Source of the DNA: Clostridiales bacterium
GTDB lineage: Bacteria > Bacillota > Clostridia > Saccharofermentanales > Saccharofermentanaceae
Reading direction: 5' to 3'
Length of the DNA: 64,000 nt
Assembly (NCBI GenBank): GCA_017509245.1
Contig: JAFWQC010000054.1
Span: 1-64,000 of the forward strand
A program made the translations under genes and the position numbers. Under the pieces are notes generated by a model that did not search any database, was not told where the DNA came from, and was given only the letters and a program-made list of their open reading frames with translations. Of the stretch, positions 13,781-41,166 are shown in pieces. The number at the start of each line of letters is the position of its first letter. The first letter of the stretch is position 1.

Positions 13781-15043
13781 TTAAGTTCCAAATCTGAAAT
13801 CAATATCACCTATCGTGATCTTCTGTCCGGATTTGATCTCATATGATCTCCCGTTTTCCACAGGAGAATCCTCAATATATGTCTTTCCTTTGCCTTTGCT
13901 CGGTGTGAGATAGAATGCTCCGTTTTCCTGTCTGATAACGGCATGAAGAGGGGAGATGCCAGGCTCATCCAAAACAATGTCTGACAGAAAACAATCAGAA
14001 CCTATTATCGTCTCATCAAGGTATACGGAGTATTCCCGGTTGATCCCGTTAATGTCAGATAACAGATCCAGATGTCCTGATCTGAGCGGCTTATATTGAA
14101 CTGCAGGCGTCTCTCCCGGTGTGGCAGAGAACCTGTTTTGCAAAGTTTCCTCCTCATCGGAAAACAAAATGGAACTTCTTTGCCTGGATATATCCGTGGT
14201 TGCCTTTTCCTTAAGATCATCTTCCAGTTTTTTCCGGTTCAGTATGGCAGTAACCAGTATTACTGCAGAGAGTGTAAAGAACAGGATGCATGGAAGATAC
14301 AGGCTGCTTAGGACTGAAACTATTGAAAGGAATGCTGAGAGGCACGATATAAGAAGATCTCTTTCGGTTTTCGAATGCTTCTTTAAAGTGACCGGTTTCC
14401 CGGTGTCTTTCCGTTCAAATATGCTTTCTTTTTCCAAAGGTGAGGAATCCCCGTCTGTGCCTCTGATGATATCAGCAATCTTAAGAAACATATCCTCATT
14501 GTTTTCTTTAACGCTGAACAGAAGGGCATTTATCTCATCATCTGAAATAACCTTTTTGAAGAAATCACAGTTAAGAAGTTTTTCAAGTCTCAATGCCCCT
14601 AAAGATGAAAGGCACAGTTCATCCGGACTGCTCTTTACCGGAAGACAGCACATTTTAATCGTTATACCCTCCGGGTCAGTGAATACCATGGAGGGATCCA
14701 GTACCAGACATGAAGGTGATATAAGGTTATCCAGGAGCTTGATCACAGAATAAAAAAGGTCCCCGGCGGATCTGCGCCGTAAATTCAGATTCGTGTTTTC
14801 CTTTTTGTGAGAGGTCAGCCTTCCCTGCGGAGAAAATACGGAAAAACCGGGGTCGGTAACCTGTACATATCCTGAAAACTCATATGAGCACAAAACAGCA
14901 GAACCAAAATGCTCAGTGATTACAGGAAGAAGGAAGTCTGATCTGTTGCCGGCAATTACCTCTTCAGCATATGTGCATAATCTTTCCGGACTGTCAAACT
15001 TCTCATAAGCGTAATATCCGAAGGGTCCCTTTCTTATCTTCAT
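13781..15043 (-). CDS. DUF6382-type membrane protein with C-terminal FHA domain
   Basis: A 420-residue protein and the last gene of the Tad operon. The cytoplasmic N-terminal ~210 residues match the DUF6382-like module often found before FHA domains. Two adjacent transmembrane helices follow (about residues 230-268, LISCLSAFLSIVSVLSS... and CILFFTLSAVILVTAIL). The last ~85 residues are an FHA fold (TIIGSDCFLSDIVLDEPGIS, then LHAVIRQENGAFYL), which in the family binds phosphothreonine peptides. This suggests control of the pilus machine by Ser/Thr phosphorylation. AAGGA precedes the ATG. Confidence 0.8.
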   Translation of the reverse strand: MKIRKGPFGYYAYEKFDSPERLCTYAEEVIAGNRSDFLLPVITEHFGSAVLCSYEFSGYVQVTDPGFSVFSPQGRLTSHKKENTNLNLRRRSAGDLFYSVIKLLDNLISPSCLVLDPSMVFTDPEGITIKMCCLPVKSSPDELCLSSLGALRLEKLLNCDFFKKVISDDEINALLFSVKENNEDMFLKIADIIRGTDGDSSPLEKESIFERKDTGKPVTLKKHSKTERDLLISCLSAFLSIVSVLSSLYLPCILFFTLSAVILVTAILNRKKLEDDLKEKATTDISRQRSSILFSDEEETLQNRFSATPGETPAVQYKPLRSGHLDLLSDINGINREYSVYLDETIIGSDCFLSDIVLDEPGISPLHAVIRQENGAFYLTPSKGKGKTYIEDSPVENGRSYEIKSGQKITIGDIDFRFGT

Positions 15044-15093: not shown

Positions 15094-15267
15094 TCAGAAT
15101 GCTGACTCGATCCTGGCATCGTCAAAACAATAATCCATGACCTTCTGTCCGTATTCGGTAAGACCTTTTCTGAACAAAAGGGCTAAAGCGACGAGTACTG
15201 CGATGATGATCACTATTTCAACGGTTCCCATGCCTTTTTTATTTCTGCGTATCTTTGCCTTTCTCAT
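15094..15267 (-). CDS. Flp1-type pilin (Tad/type IVb pilus)
   Basis: A 57-residue protein: a short basic leader MRKAKIRRNKK, then GMGTVEIVIIIAVLVALALL and a C-terminal tail with GLTEYGQKVMDY. The Gly-Met-Gly cleavage region with Glu five residues after the second Gly's neighbour and one hydrophobic helix are the marks of Flp pilins processed by a prepilin peptidase. The ATG at 15267 has a perfect AAGGAGG site. It lies in the Tad operon between the TadB-TadC fusion and the FHA gene. No prepilin peptidase is in the window. Confidence 0.85.
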   Translation of the reverse strand: MRKAKIRRNKKGMGTVEIVIIIAVLVALALLFRKGLTEYGQKVMDYCFDDARIESAF

Positions 15268-15282: not shown

Positions 15283-16845
15283 TTATATGCCGAGTGAGAT
15301 AATTGCCGGTGTCATAGCAACCATGAGAACACTGATGAAATCAAGTGTCATGGGTATGATCAGTCCCAATGCTTCACGTTCCTGCCGTTTGCGTGAGGCA
15401 TTCCTGCATAAGTTCCAGCACGCCTGTGCCTGAAGATTAAGCATGTTAAGCACTTCGGATGACCCGAGCCTTCCATATCTTGCTATAAGAAGCAGTGCCG
15501 CCTGTGCTTCCGGTATCTGGATCCTTAACGAAAACTTCTCGATAGCATCAGATGCGGGGATCCCGCTTAAGATCATTGCCCTGAGATTCTTTATCTCAAG
15601 GGAAAGACTTTTATTCTTTCCAAATGCTTTTGAGCAGATGGATATCGCCTTCGGCAGCTGCATTCCCGATTCGAGAAGTGTGGAAATAAGGCAAAGGAAC
15701 AGAGGAATATCACTCATGAGATCTTCTCTCTTACGTTCAACATCCGTTCTGATCTCGTAGCTTCCGAGTACCAGTACTGCGGATGTGAAGATAATTGAAT
15801 AGACAGGGTTTTCTTTAAGACCTGTCAATATTGCCAGCGAGAGGATAAATGATACAACGCCTGTGATCAGCTGTTTTTTCAGATACTGTTCATATGAGAT
15901 GTCCGGATTGACTGAAAGCTCATTAAACAGTTCGTGTCTTGCCGTTATGAAGCTTGCCGGCAGGATCCTTTTTGCAATACCTGTAAGTGTGTTTCTGGGC
16001 GGTTTTCCGGTTAATGCTGCACTTGCAAGTTCGGATCTGAATGCTTTGCGTCCATGCTCATGAGACATGAAACGAAGCAGCATTGCACAGGCGATCGTGC
16101 AGATTCCGAATGCCATGGCAAGAAGCGCAGAGCCGGTCTTTGTATTTCTGGCCATGTCCAGATATTCGCGGCTCATATAATTAAGTGCAAACGTAACGGC
16201 GAAGGGCATTGCGCAAAGGATCGCGGCTTCAGCGTTCTTGCCTGCGTTTGAAGCCTGTATCTCTCCCTGGACGGCGTTGAGCTCTGAAAGCATCTGGCAG
16301 GAACTTCTGAGGATGGCAAGACTGTTGTTGCCGATCTCACCGGATATGGCTAGCGCCTGGAATACAGGCACCGTCTCGGGAAAGTTGAGCTGGCCTGCAA
16401 AGATATCCAATGATTCTGAAAGGCTTACATGGAGCTTTAAATTGTTTTCCAGATTGATCAGCGGTTTTAAGAGCATGGAACGCTTGCCGAAGGTCTTTTC
16501 AATCACAGGTCTTATCAGAAGCAATGATTTCTCTATTGAGTAGCCGCTCGATACACTCGTGCACAGCACCTGAAGAAGGACCAGAAGCTGGGTCCTGGTA
16601 TGTCTGTAGTTGTTGGAATAGATCTTTTTCATTGCTTCTTTCCATGGAAAGATTCCAAGAAGTAATGCAAGGACAAGTCTGACTGCTTCAGAACCGATGA
16701 AGAGGCCTGAAGCGAAATATACTGCCGCCGCGAAGAGCGGATATAGCCATATGGTTTTCACCAGGAAAATGGTAAAGGGATTCCTCTTTTCAGGCGCAGT
16801 ATGCTTTTGCGCTCTGGATATCCGTAATGTCTGCGATACGCTCAA
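15283..16845 (-). CDS. Fused TadB-TadC inner-membrane pilus platform protein
   Basis: A 520-residue protein with two successive T2SSF-type domains. Residues ~75-270 resemble TadB (SGYSIEKSLLLI, then SGEIGNNSLAILRSS, with following transmembrane helices). Residues ~350-520 resemble TadC (DIPLFLCLISTLLESGMQLP, then PEAQAALLLIARYGRLG, final helices IIPMTLDFISVLMVAMTP). In most Tad loci these are separate genes. A TTG start at 16845 is chosen because AGGAGG lies 8 nt before it; no family N-terminus is lost. The gene overlaps cpaF by 56 bp. Confidence 0.8.
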   Translation of the reverse strand: MSVSQTLRISRAQKHTAPEKRNPFTIFLVKTIWLYPLFAAAVYFASGLFIGSEAVRLVLALLLGIFPWKEAMKKIYSNNYRHTRTQLLVLLQVLCTSVSSGYSIEKSLLLIRPVIEKTFGKRSMLLKPLINLENNLKLHVSLSESLDIFAGQLNFPETVPVFQALAISGEIGNNSLAILRSSCQMLSELNAVQGEIQASNAGKNAEAAILCAMPFAVTFALNYMSREYLDMARNTKTGSALLAMAFGICTIACAMLLRFMSHEHGRKAFRSELASAALTGKPPRNTLTGIAKRILPASFITARHELFNELSVNPDISYEQYLKKQLITGVVSFILSLAILTGLKENPVYSIIFTSAVLVLGSYEIRTDVERKREDLMSDIPLFLCLISTLLESGMQLPKAISICSKAFGKNKSLSLEIKNLRAMILSGIPASDAIEKFSLRIQIPEAQAALLLIARYGRLGSSEVLNMLNLQAQACWNLCRNASRKRQEREALGLIIPMTLDFISVLMVAMTPAIISLGI

Positions 16846-17986
16846 GTCCTTCACCTCCTTTGTTCCTGTAGAGCGTTTTGAGTCTGTATTCGTGTTCTCT
16901 CGGTGGTAACACCTGACAGATCTCATCTATGTATCTTTTTCCTTCGCGGCTCCTCATTATATGAAGCACAATGTTTATCCCCATCGAAACCTGTGAAAGG
17001 ATCGCATCGTAGGGGAGACTTGATCCTGACATGATCATGGCTGTAAGCCTTTCCATCATCTCAAGACATGAGTTGCTGTGACCTGTGCTCATAGAACCGG
17101 GATGTCCGCTCGTAAGGCATGACAGCAGGTCGGCACTTTCTTTGCCTCTGACTTCGCCGACGATGATCCTGTCAGGACGCATTCTCAATGAAGCCCTGAT
17201 CATCGTGCCGATATTTACTTCGCCTGTTCCGTCAGGTCCGGGAAGCCTCGCCTCCATCCTTACCAGGTTGTCGACACCTTTGAGATTCAGTTCGGCGGAA
17301 TCCTCGATCGTTACTATCCGTTCATTCTTAGGAATGAAGCCGGAAAGACAGTTCAAAAATGTCGTTTTGCCGGAACCGGTTCCTCCGCATATGAATATGG
17401 TCCTCTTGTTCCTGACACACTCGGCCAGAAACCTGGCTGCTTCCTCGCTTATGAAATCCTGCCTGATGAGTGACACTATGTCATGAGTGATGCCTGTGAA
17501 CTTGCGGATGGTAACGGTTGTCTCTCTTGAAATCGGAGGGAGTACGGCATTGGCTCTGGAACCGTCCGGCAGTCTTAAGTCGGCAATGGGATTTGCTTCG
17601 TTAAGAGGTCTGTTCTGATTGGCAAAGAAGCATGAGATACATGTCTTCAGTGATTCCTCATCGCGGAATGCAAGGTCGGATTTATAAAGCATGCCTCCTC
17701 TTTCGAAGAAGATCTTATAAGGTCCGTTTACCATGATCTCCGTTACTGACGGATCTTCCATAAGAGGTTCGATAACATCAAGGCGTCTCAATGAGTTGAA
17801 TACCGACTGGGCCATCTCGCGCTTTTGGTCAAGATTCATCTTGAAAGATGTGTTCTCGGATATCACATCCGAGATGATCTCCCTTAGTTTCTCGTCGGAA
17901 GGGTCGGTCTCTCCGGACATTGAGTTCAATACGCAGTATGTTATCTGTTCCTTTATTTCATCTGCGTTATTTATCGAATTTGTCAT
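16790..17986 (-). CDS. CpaF/TadA-type pilus assembly ATPase
   Basis: A 398-residue secretion ATPase that powers Tad pilus extension. It has the helical N-terminal part and then EIMVNGP, RLPDGSRANAVLPP, Walker A GGTGSGKTT, the TIEDSAELNL Asp box, the RMRPDRIIVGEVRG Walker B region and the His box STGHSNS. The start codon overlaps the end of the upstream TadZ-like gene by 4 bp (ATGA), indicating translational coupling. Confidence 0.93.
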   Translation of the reverse strand: MTNSINNADEIKEQITYCVLNSMSGETDPSDEKLREIISDVISENTSFKMNLDQKREMAQSVFNSLRRLDVIEPLMEDPSVTEIMVNGPYKIFFERGGMLYKSDLAFRDEESLKTCISCFFANQNRPLNEANPIADLRLPDGSRANAVLPPISRETTVTIRKFTGITHDIVSLIRQDFISEEAARFLAECVRNKRTIFICGGTGSGKTTFLNCLSGFIPKNERIVTIEDSAELNLKGVDNLVRMEARLPGPDGTGEVNIGTMIRASLRMRPDRIIVGEVRGKESADLLSCLTSGHPGSMSTGHSNSCLEMMERLTAMIMSGSSLPYDAILSQVSMGINIVLHIMRSREGKRYIDEICQVLPPREHEYRLKTLYRNKGGEGLERIADITDIQSAKAYCA

Positions 17987-18891
17987 ACGGCCATTCTCCC
18001 GCAGACTGCCGGATCGGTTTTCTCATCAGTTGTATGAAGATCTTCGGCGTAATATACGGCGATCCTTTCACGGCCCAATGTCCTGGTAAGAAGTGATATG
18101 AGTTCTCTCGCACCTATATCTTCACCTACGCTTCTTGCAGGCAACAGGATCGATACCTTGTCGCAGGAAGCAAGCAGTTCCGGAAGATCCATGGTTCTGA
18201 ATCCTTCCACGACTGCAAGAACGTTAACGGATCTTATCTTCGAATGGGCGAGATCGGCTGCGTGATACATCAGTTTTGTCGACCGGGATATTCCGAGGTC
18301 GTATACATCATCGAAGTTTTTGGTGCTTCCGGGAGTAAGGAATCCGGAGTCATCCATGTTGCAGTATTTCAGAATGTCTTCGGGTACAAACTTCCTTGAC
18401 TGGCAAGCTTCCAGAAGGGCTGTCATGTTACTGCCGGAAGAACCTCTCCATAAAGCTCTGAGCTTACTTGTAAAGTCGAGCCGTATGTTATAATCCGCAC
18501 CTTTTAATCCGTTCTGAAGATCGCTTATGAATCTGTCTCTGACATCCGAGTAAACAAACGGAATGACGGCGGAAAGTGACCCCGTAGCGGTTGGAATGCT
18601 TAATGGTACGTCTTTATTGGGCATTATCAGGGAAATAAGCTTTGCACAGTCTACTATTCCGCCGTCATCCGTCAGTCTTAAGGGTGTAGAGGTGTAATGG
18701 GAAATATCATCCTCTGTTGTGTCTTTAGGGTCATATAAGACACAGGTATAGTTGCTGAACCTGTCATCAGGTTCCCCCTTATCTATGTAAGGGTCGATTA
18801 TATATGCGTCAGGGTAAAAACTGGAAAGTCTCTTTTTGAGCAGCGCGAAAATGTATTCGTTTTTCTCATATATCTTGATCGTAAATGCCAT
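17983..18891 (-). CDS. TadZ/CpaE-like protein, first gene of the Tad operon
   Basis: A 302-residue soluble protein. The beginning FTIKIYEKNEYIFALLKKRL resembles a degenerate receiver fold, and the second half has alternating strands like a MinD/ParA-type domain (VNVLAVVEGFRTMDLPELLA, KVSILLPARSV), but no P-loop is visible. TadZ/CpaE proteins place the pilus machine in the cell; the assignment here rests mostly on position before cpaF and size. A GGGGG site lies 8 nt before the ATG. The name is tentative. Confidence 0.55.
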   Translation of the reverse strand: MAFTIKIYEKNEYIFALLKKRLSSFYPDAYIIDPYIDKGEPDDRFSNYTCVLYDPKDTTEDDISHYTSTPLRLTDDGGIVDCAKLISLIMPNKDVPLSIPTATGSLSAVIPFVYSDVRDRFISDLQNGLKGADYNIRLDFTSKLRALWRGSSGSNMTALLEACQSRKFVPEDILKYCNMDDSGFLTPGSTKNFDDVYDLGISRSTKLMYHAADLAHSKIRSVNVLAVVEGFRTMDLPELLASCDKVSILLPARSVGEDIGARELISLLTRTLGRERIAVYYAEDLHTTDEKTDPAVCGRMAV

Positions 18892-18915: not shown

Positions 18916-18986
18916 TTGTCGGTGATTTGGATTGTAAAGCCCCGGATACCCGGATTAAAGCGACAAATACCGACAAATACCGACAA
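18916..18986 (-). promoter_or_regulatory. Tad operon promoter with phased TTGTCGG array
   Basis: Read toward the operon, TTGTCGG (18986-18980), TTGTCGG (18976-18970) and TTGTCGC (18966-18960) recur every 10 bp. After 23 nt comes a -10-like TACAAT (18936-18931). The corresponding -35 position, TTTAAT, is poor, as expected of an activator-dependent promoter. An inverted CCGACAA lies at 18922-18916. comEA has the same arrangement with the same 23-nt spacing. Confidence 0.7.
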
Positions 18987-19161: not shown

Positions 19162-19260
19162 TGCTTATCAAGAGTGGCTACAGGGACCGGCCCGTTAATA
19201 GCCCGGCAACCGCGGAAAGCAGCGGTGCCAATTCCGGCAGGGAAACCTGAAAGATGAGGA
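19162..19260 (+). promoter_or_regulatory. SAM-I (S-box) riboswitch
   Basis: The S-box core is present in order: the P1 strand GCTTATCAAGAG, AGGGACCGGCCC, GCCCGGCAACC, GGTGCCAATTCC and the closing strand AAGATGAG. It binds S-adenosylmethionine and, in this family, favours termination when SAM is plentiful. Here it stands before metK, so SAM represses its own synthase. Confidence 0.96.
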
Positions 19261-40370: not shown

Positions 40371-40425
40371 TTGTCGGTTTTGTCGTAATTTGTCGGAAAA
40401 AACCGACAAAGAGCGGTGCTATGCT
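40371..40425 (+). promoter_or_regulatory. comEA promoter with phased TTGTCGG array
   Basis: TTGTCGG (40371-40377), TTGTCGT (40380-40386) and TTGTCGG (40390-40396) stand 9 and 10 bp apart. After 23 nt comes a -10-like TATGCT (40420-40425), then 6 nt to the comEA ATG. The -35 position is AAAAAA. An inverted CCGACAA occupies 40403-40409. This is the same design as before the Tad operon. Confidence 0.7.
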
Positions 40426-40431
40426 TTCTCT

Positions 40432-41166
40432 ATGGTTAAGAAAAGTACCGCATCAAAGATAAAAAGTCTGATATATCCTCTGGCATTCATCTTTATCATC
40501 ATCCTGAGTGCCTTATATAAGTTTGTGTTCAAGGGCAACGGGGACTTCAGCATAAAGGCATTTAAGAGCGGAAAGACGGCTTCTGTGTCTGATGTATCCG
40601 GCGCGGATAACACCGTCATTACGGGTTCTGACAGCGTAAACGTCTCATATACGGATGAGACTTATTCAACAGTCACGGAAACATTTCAGATGATCAGCGT
40701 GTATATCTGCGGAGAGGTAAAAGAACCGGGTATTTACGAAGTCCCCAAAGGAGCCCTGCTTAACGACATCATTGAAGATGCAGGCGGGCTTACGGAAGAA
40801 GCATCGGTCAATAATATCAACTTTGTCTACCGGATAGAGTACAACATTTCTGTTTATATCCCGTCAAAAGACGAGGTGGCAACAGGTTTTGCAGGCGGAG
40901 ACATAATAAGACAGGACGGTGTCTATGTCTGGGGTTCGTCTTCGGGCGGAGCTGAAGGCGGCGGGCAGGGTGAGACTCTGATGGTGAATATCAATACGGC
41001 TTCCGTTGATGAGCTTAAGAGCCTTCCGGGAATCGGTGAAGTGACAGCAAAAGCCATTGCCGACTATAGGAAGAATGAGCCCTTTAAGAGCATTGAGGAC
41101 ATAAAGAACGTAACCGGAATAGGGGATTCCAAGTTCAACAGGATAAAGGATTATATCTGCGTATGA
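40432..41166 (+). CDS. comEA: ComEA-like competence DNA receptor
   Basis: A 244-residue membrane-anchored DNA-binding protein. One N-terminal transmembrane helix (SLIYPLAFIFIIILSALYKF) is followed by an SLBB-like domain (VYICGEVKEPGIYEVPKGALL) and a C-terminal helix-hairpin-helix pair (NINTASVDELKSLPGIGEVT, VTGIGDSKFNRIKDYI). In transformable bacteria ComEA binds incoming double-stranded DNA outside the membrane. The ATG at 40432 has no Shine-Dalgarno and lies 6 nt after the -10-like hexamer. comEC is not in the window. Confidence 0.92.
   Translation: MVKKSTASKIKSLIYPLAFIFIIILSALYKFVFKGNGDFSIKAFKSGKTASVSDVSGADNTVITGSDSVNVSYTDETYSTVTETFQMISVYICGEVKEPGIYEVPKGALLNDIIEDAGGLTEEASVNNINFVYRIEYNISVYIPSKDEVATGFAGGDIIRQDGVYVWGSSSGGAEGGGQGETLMVNINTASVDELKSLPGIGEVTAKAIADYRKNEPFKSIEDIKNVTGIGDSKFNRIKDYICV

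Follow-up and report, generated by a model that had tools for sequence, protein, structure and literature searches.

The 64,000-nt window, the whole stretch of DNA analysed here, carries a Tad pilus operon on its minus strand and a comEA gene on its plus strand. The operon begins with a 302-aa protein at the TadZ position (17983-18891), which is without a Pfam match and for which 18 array-linked orthologues were clustered, and continues with a CpaF/TadA ATPase (16790-17986; PF00437, 1e-48), a TadB/TadC-type membrane protein (15283-16926; PF00482, 2.4e-10) and a 57-aa Flp-type pilin (15094-15267; PF16982 Flp1_like, 1.1e-12), ending with an FHA-domain protein (13781-15043; PF00498). The CpaF ATPase, TadB/C and Flp pilin that identify a Tad pilus all lie within this single operon. 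Divergent from the tad promoter, a SAM riboswitch (RF00162, 67.7 bits; 19162-19260) precedes metK (19342), and is the window's sole Rfam match. The comEA gene (40432-41166) encodes a 244-aa protein with SLBB and helix-hairpin-helix domains (PF12836, 1.9e-20; PF10531, 2.4e-13).

Both transcription units are preceded by a phased array of short direct repeats. At tad, the minus strand reads TTGTCGG-TAT-TTGTCGG-TAT-TTGTCGC from 18986 down to 18960 (boxes 1 to 3 at 18980-18986, 18970-18976 and 18960-18966), followed after 23 nt by the -10 hexamer TACAAT (18931-18936). At comEA, the plus strand reads TTGTCGG-TT-TTGTCGT-AAT-TTGTCGG (40371-40396; boxes at 40371-40377, 40380-40386 and 40390-40396), followed after 23 nt by the -10 hexamer TATGCT (40420-40425), which ends 6 nt before the ATG and predicts a leaderless mRNA. 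The first-pass annotation had described exactly this arrangement, three TTGTCGN boxes with 9-10-bp phasing placed 23 nt before a -10, and it is confirmed at both promoters. As 23 nt is the sum of a 6-nt -35 hexamer and a 17-nt spacer, the last box adjoins the -35 position, which in both promoters is A/T-rich and not TTGACA-like. An inverted CCGACAA, also pointed out earlier, is indeed present downstream of the tad -10 (18916-18922, minus strand) and between box 3 and the -10 of comEA (40403-40409, plus strand), but it is only sporadic in relatives and therefore falls outside the conserved architecture. The bare 7-mer is mildly enriched in the window, with 14 copies compared to an expected 6.9 +/- 2.9; it is the phased array, not the bare 7-mer, that goes beyond chance.

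Array promoters and their target genes

The host genome is a 2.74-Mb MAG of 79% completeness. A scan with the pattern TTGTCGN{3,5}TTGTCG yielded 18 matches, compared to 4 for the reversed pattern, and located intergenic arrays before tad, comEA, comEC (PF03772), recA (PF00154), a minor-pilin operon and the gene of a 262-aa protein (orf262). The minor-pilin operon encodes an 81-100-aa protein and a TadG-like protein, both named from sequence inspection. It had been predicted that such a scan would find comEC, dprA and similar genes, and comEC, recA and the minor-pilin operon were the host's answer. One more triple array (G000:C113:9263-9288) lies in an intergenic region of about 800 bp upstream of a Mur-ligase-domain (MurT-like) gene, and its target is unclear. 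The arrays at L001, L006, L010, L002/L007 and L054 were not counted as promoters, being inside coding sequence or tRNA-flank repeats.

The genus Saccharofermentans consists of non-sporulating rumen and gut bacteria, represented here by 85 genomes (rumen and gut MAGs). Triple arrays occur in 64 of them, with 379 matches (overlapping ones counted) and none for the reversed pattern, and in 9 of the 103 remaining genomes of the order. These reversed-pattern controls rule out a chance origin of the arrays, as had been argued from the two clusters in the window. Array matches in unrelated phyla were taken as chance. Clustering of the downstream genes in the fetched loci produced 92 array promoters of seven gene types: orf262 (29), tad (18), TadG-like (14), comM (11), comEA (11), recA (5) and comEC (4), where comM is followed in relatives by dprA (PF02481) and topA. 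A TANNNT hexamer lies at an offset of 23 nt in 45 of the 92 promoters and at 22, 23, 32 or 33 nt in 75 of them, while rotated sequences gave a maximum of 11 at any offset. Further, among the cases scored across the genus, 6 nt separate the -10 from the ATG at 9 of 10 comEA, 3 of 3 comEC and 15 of 19 orf262 genes, and these mRNAs are therefore predicted to be leaderless; from the genus loci, the tad and comM transcripts are predicted to have ordinary leaders.

The upstream regions of relatives carry the array at comM-dprA, recA-recX, comEA and tad, mostly with the 23-nt geometry, and the array was neither missing from orthologous promoters nor scattered before many unrelated genes. A promoter element shared by comEA, comEC, comM-dprA and recA is what a competence regulon would display, and the reading of the tad and comEA arrays as parts of one such regulon, proposed in the first-pass annotation, is supported by the targets in the host and its relatives. 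Overall, a Tad pilus operon and almost every DNA-uptake gene of the genus are preceded by the tandem repeats, and sequence comparison lends good support to the conclusion that the array promoters mark a competence regulon that includes Tad. The presence of recA and nuclease-like genes among the targets would also suit a regulon for repair under DNA damage or starvation. This alternative is very unlikely, as comEA, comEC, dprA and comM are dedicated or nearly dedicated to transformation, and recA is served further downstream by a promoter of its own that contains a LexA-like GAACN4GTTC element. The 23-nt geometry is missing from the recA arrays themselves, which are placed about 200 bp ahead of the gene.

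The most frequent target, orf262, belongs to a family represented by several paralogues in each genome, to which neither Pfam nor NCBIfam gives a name (one stray Pfam match was found). The host copy (G000:C52; L008:676-1464) and 28 further array-linked copies have a competence-type promoter. Its members share the invariant motifs RS..E, D(F/Y) and E..G, with invariant residues E149, D181 and E196. The structure was predicted with confidence (pLDDT 86.6); a Foldseek search with this model returned no significant match, and the top of its VIA list consists mostly of PD-(D/E)XK enzymes, with Z of at most 7.8. The model thus suggests that orf262 is probably a PD-(D/E)XK-like nuclease.

A receiver-less Spo0A homologue as candidate activator

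The Spo0A binding sites called 0A boxes occur in tandem with a 10-bp arrangement. The TTGTCGR boxes, with their 10-bp phasing, resemble such tandem sites and have the TGTCG core in common with them. In particular, the candidate sites read TTGTCG[AGT], with exact TTGTCGAA in several lineages, and the 0A box is TGTCGAA, of which Spo0A contacts G2, C4 and G5 (PMC3485338). Genomes across the order contain one protein with the Spo0A_C domain (PF08769), whose score exceeds the cut-off in 28 of 40 genomes; in regulator set A1, PF08769 matched 15 of 15 members at E up to 1. Profiles built for the genus find the protein as a single copy in 82 of the 85 Saccharofermentans genomes. The host is among them; its copy lies outside the window (G000:C92:6264-6809; 181 aa) and matches PF08769 weakly (0.0022). 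The regulator is about 180-220 aa long and homologous to the Spo0A DNA-binding domain structures 1lq1 and 1fc3 (1lq1 at 1.7e-11). Within set A1, no receiver domain was matched at E<=1, and the best score against the full-length Spo0A equivalog TIGR02875, among the matches listed, was 27.5 bits compared to a cut-off of 200. Its neighbourhood is conserved, comprising the end of ligA, a 5-FTHF ligase-like gene, a hypothetical gene, the regulator and an HU gene (names from sequence inspection). SpoIVA (TIGR02836), the sole sporulation marker examined, was found in 0 of 40 genomes of the order, with a positive B. subtilis control.

The regulator is also encoded in further families of the order, where triple arrays are mostly absent, and it was not detected in G006 (97% complete) and G141, though both have arrays, nor in G022, though boxes are present there. 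In Saccharofermentans, arrays are absent from the regulator genes themselves, which gives no support to simple autoregulation in this genus. In another family, TTGTCG repeats lie upstream of a regulator gene (L140:1354-1401; G026:C1), where autoregulation is possible. One regulator frame (L358; G115:C23) contains in-frame stops in a genome without TTGTCG triples, a possible loss of the system. In three genomes of family f2 (G027, G033 and G036), the Spo0A_C recognition helix reads C-Y-x-x-R-Y instead of E-R-x-x-R-Y, a replacement that suggests a changed function. Beyond the genus, a genome from another family of the order (G031) has three 0A-like boxes at comM and comEC, and a Bacillota MAG (S1R_St_67; L250, JAUNBU010000014.1) has three perfect copies of TTGTCGAA before a CpaF/TadA-like gene; on account of these boxes, the link between Spo0A and competence may predate the genus.

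For the genus members that lack TTGTCG triples, the comM, tad and comEA promoters were inspected, and several of these genomes carry altered boxes in the same architecture. In G104, G109 and G119 the boxes are TTGTGAG repeats with 10-bp phasing, placed 22 nt before the -10 of tad and 32 nt before that of comM; comEA has them too in G104 and G119, again at 22 nt. G087, G088, G120, G125 and G135 carry TTTCGTA-NNN-WTTCGGA at comM, at a distance of 23 nt from the -10 (and likewise at tad where seen), giving a derived consensus of TTTCGKA. In G140, all three promoters carry TTGTGTG/TTGTGAC repeats at a distance of 22 nt from the -10. In the first two groups the regulator has changed as well: the recognition-helix Glu, found in the motif VERAIRHA of B. 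subtilis Spo0A, is replaced by Ser in exactly G104, G109 and G119 and by Val in the five TTTCGKA genomes plus G099, and is kept in 70 other genus members. A genus-wide scan found TTGTGWG triples at 6 sites in the three Ser genomes and, elsewhere, only at one site in G113, with 0 in the control, and TTGTGAG triples in exactly the three Ser genomes. Conversely, TTGTCG triples occur in 0 of 9 Ser/Val genomes, compared to 61 of 73 others (Fisher p 1e-6, phylogeny ignored).

In the regulator tree, the Ser and Val groups are each monophyletic and nested among TTGTCG lineages, and they are thus derived switches, with G140 as a possible third. With only two clear derived switches, the correlation between box and helix stems from few independent events. 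Moreover, G014 (Glu-to-Lys) and G116 (Glu-to-Ala) retain TTGTCG arrays, and the helix-to-site code is therefore not simple.

From these comparisons, the receiver-less Spo0A homologue emerges as the leading candidate for the activator of the array promoters; the first-pass annotation had proposed that one unknown activator drives both tad and comEA, and this protein is now a strong candidate for that role. Regulators of the OmpR/PhoB type use direct repeats of about 10-11 bp next to the -35, and direct repeats adjoining the -35 position would suit such a response regulator too, with the Spo0A_C protein having no part. The arrays of G006, where a Spo0A_C gene was not detected, point the same way. 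Such another activator is unlikely, however, as the boxes have their core in common with the Spo0A box and change in the two clades where the recognition-helix Glu changes; an unrelated factor would have to have changed in the same two clades.

In the proposed mechanism, the arrays would derive from Spo0A boxes and serve as tandem sites to which the small receiver-less homologue binds. Three to five boxes would align on one face of the DNA, with the last adjoining the -35 position of promoters of the sigmaA type, in which the -10 is recognisable and the -35 poor; there, the bound protein could recruit RNA polymerase in a class II-like manner. The regulon would comprise comEA, comEC, comM-dprA, recA, the tad operon, the TadG/TadE-like minor pilins and the expanded PD-(D/E)XK-like nuclease family. 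The sign of regulation is not readable from sequence alone, and Spo0A acts both ways in Bacillus, comK included (PMC3297582), so the factor could instead repress these promoters. We regard repression as quite unlikely, as the boxes stop where the -35 begins and leave the -10 uncovered, and the -35 is a plain A/T-rich stretch in promoters that seem to need help. Direct activation of the competence regulon, Tad included, by a descendant of Spo0A is the reading in which we have high confidence.

The Tad pilus as a candidate for DNA uptake

In many bacteria, DNA uptake is served by type IV pili with PilT. Saccharofermentans encodes a separate pilus of this type (pilB-pilT-pilC-pilM-N-O plus pilins), which may be the one that takes up DNA, with Tad as a co-expressed organelle of adhesion or secretion. 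We hold this to be possible but doubtful. In G000, G005 and G017, the genomes inspected for this, pilB is not preceded by a box array, whereas both Tad loci, the tad operon and the TadG/TadE-like minor pilins, carry one, so that co-regulation points to Tad. Moreover, Micrococcus luteus depends on Tad/Flp pili for transformation (PMC4322843), and Tad is reported to be linked to DNA uptake in Liberibacter (PMC8513845). As the genus also encodes the boxless pilBTC-type pilus, the case for Tad is one of co-regulation alone, and it makes Tad a plausible DNA-uptake pilus.

The broadest reading, to which we give an even chance, is that in a clostridial lineage that had lost sporulation a receiver-less Spo0A persisted as a dedicated master activator of transformation, that Tad is the uptake pilus, and that binding specificity switched together with all the promoter arrays at least twice inside the one genus. 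If true, it would supply a regulator, its binding code and its regulon together, and explain why non-spore-formers retain a Spo0A remnant. It would also predict that abundant bacteria of the rumen and gut, which are difficult to manipulate, are naturally transformable, and offer a natural experiment in the co-evolution of a regulator and its binding sites.

Comparison with known systems

The open-access literature searched yielded no competence regulator for this clostridial lineage, and the nearest parallels come from elsewhere. Like Spo0A and the 0A boxes of Bacillus and Clostridioides, the system combines a homologous C-terminal DNA-binding domain with a TGTCG core and boxes near sigmaA promoters. 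Unlike Spo0A, the regulator is without a receiver domain, is about 180-220 aa long and is encoded in single copy in a lineage without SpoIVA; its putative targets are late competence genes and Tad, and its specificity appears to have drifted in two or three clades. B. subtilis Spo0A~P likewise places a Spo0A-type protein directly on a competence promoter, that of comK, but there it gates the master regulator ComK, while here it is the genes of DNA uptake and processing themselves that carry the boxes (PMC3297582). In Lactobacillus sakei, which does not sporulate, SigH reportedly drives the expression of competence genes (PMC3364868), and this similarly ties a regulator of sporulation initiation to competence in a non-spore-former; SigH, however, is a sigma factor acting on a different promoter type, and not a Spo0A relative. 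The M. luteus Tad-like genes are those of an actinobacterium and are required there for natural transformation, whereas the clostridial Tad locus is tied to competence by shared boxes and is a candidate for such a role (PMC4322843). The likeness of the array promoters to binding sites of a cut-down Spo0A relative suggests that a spore switch has been re-used to turn on natural transformation.
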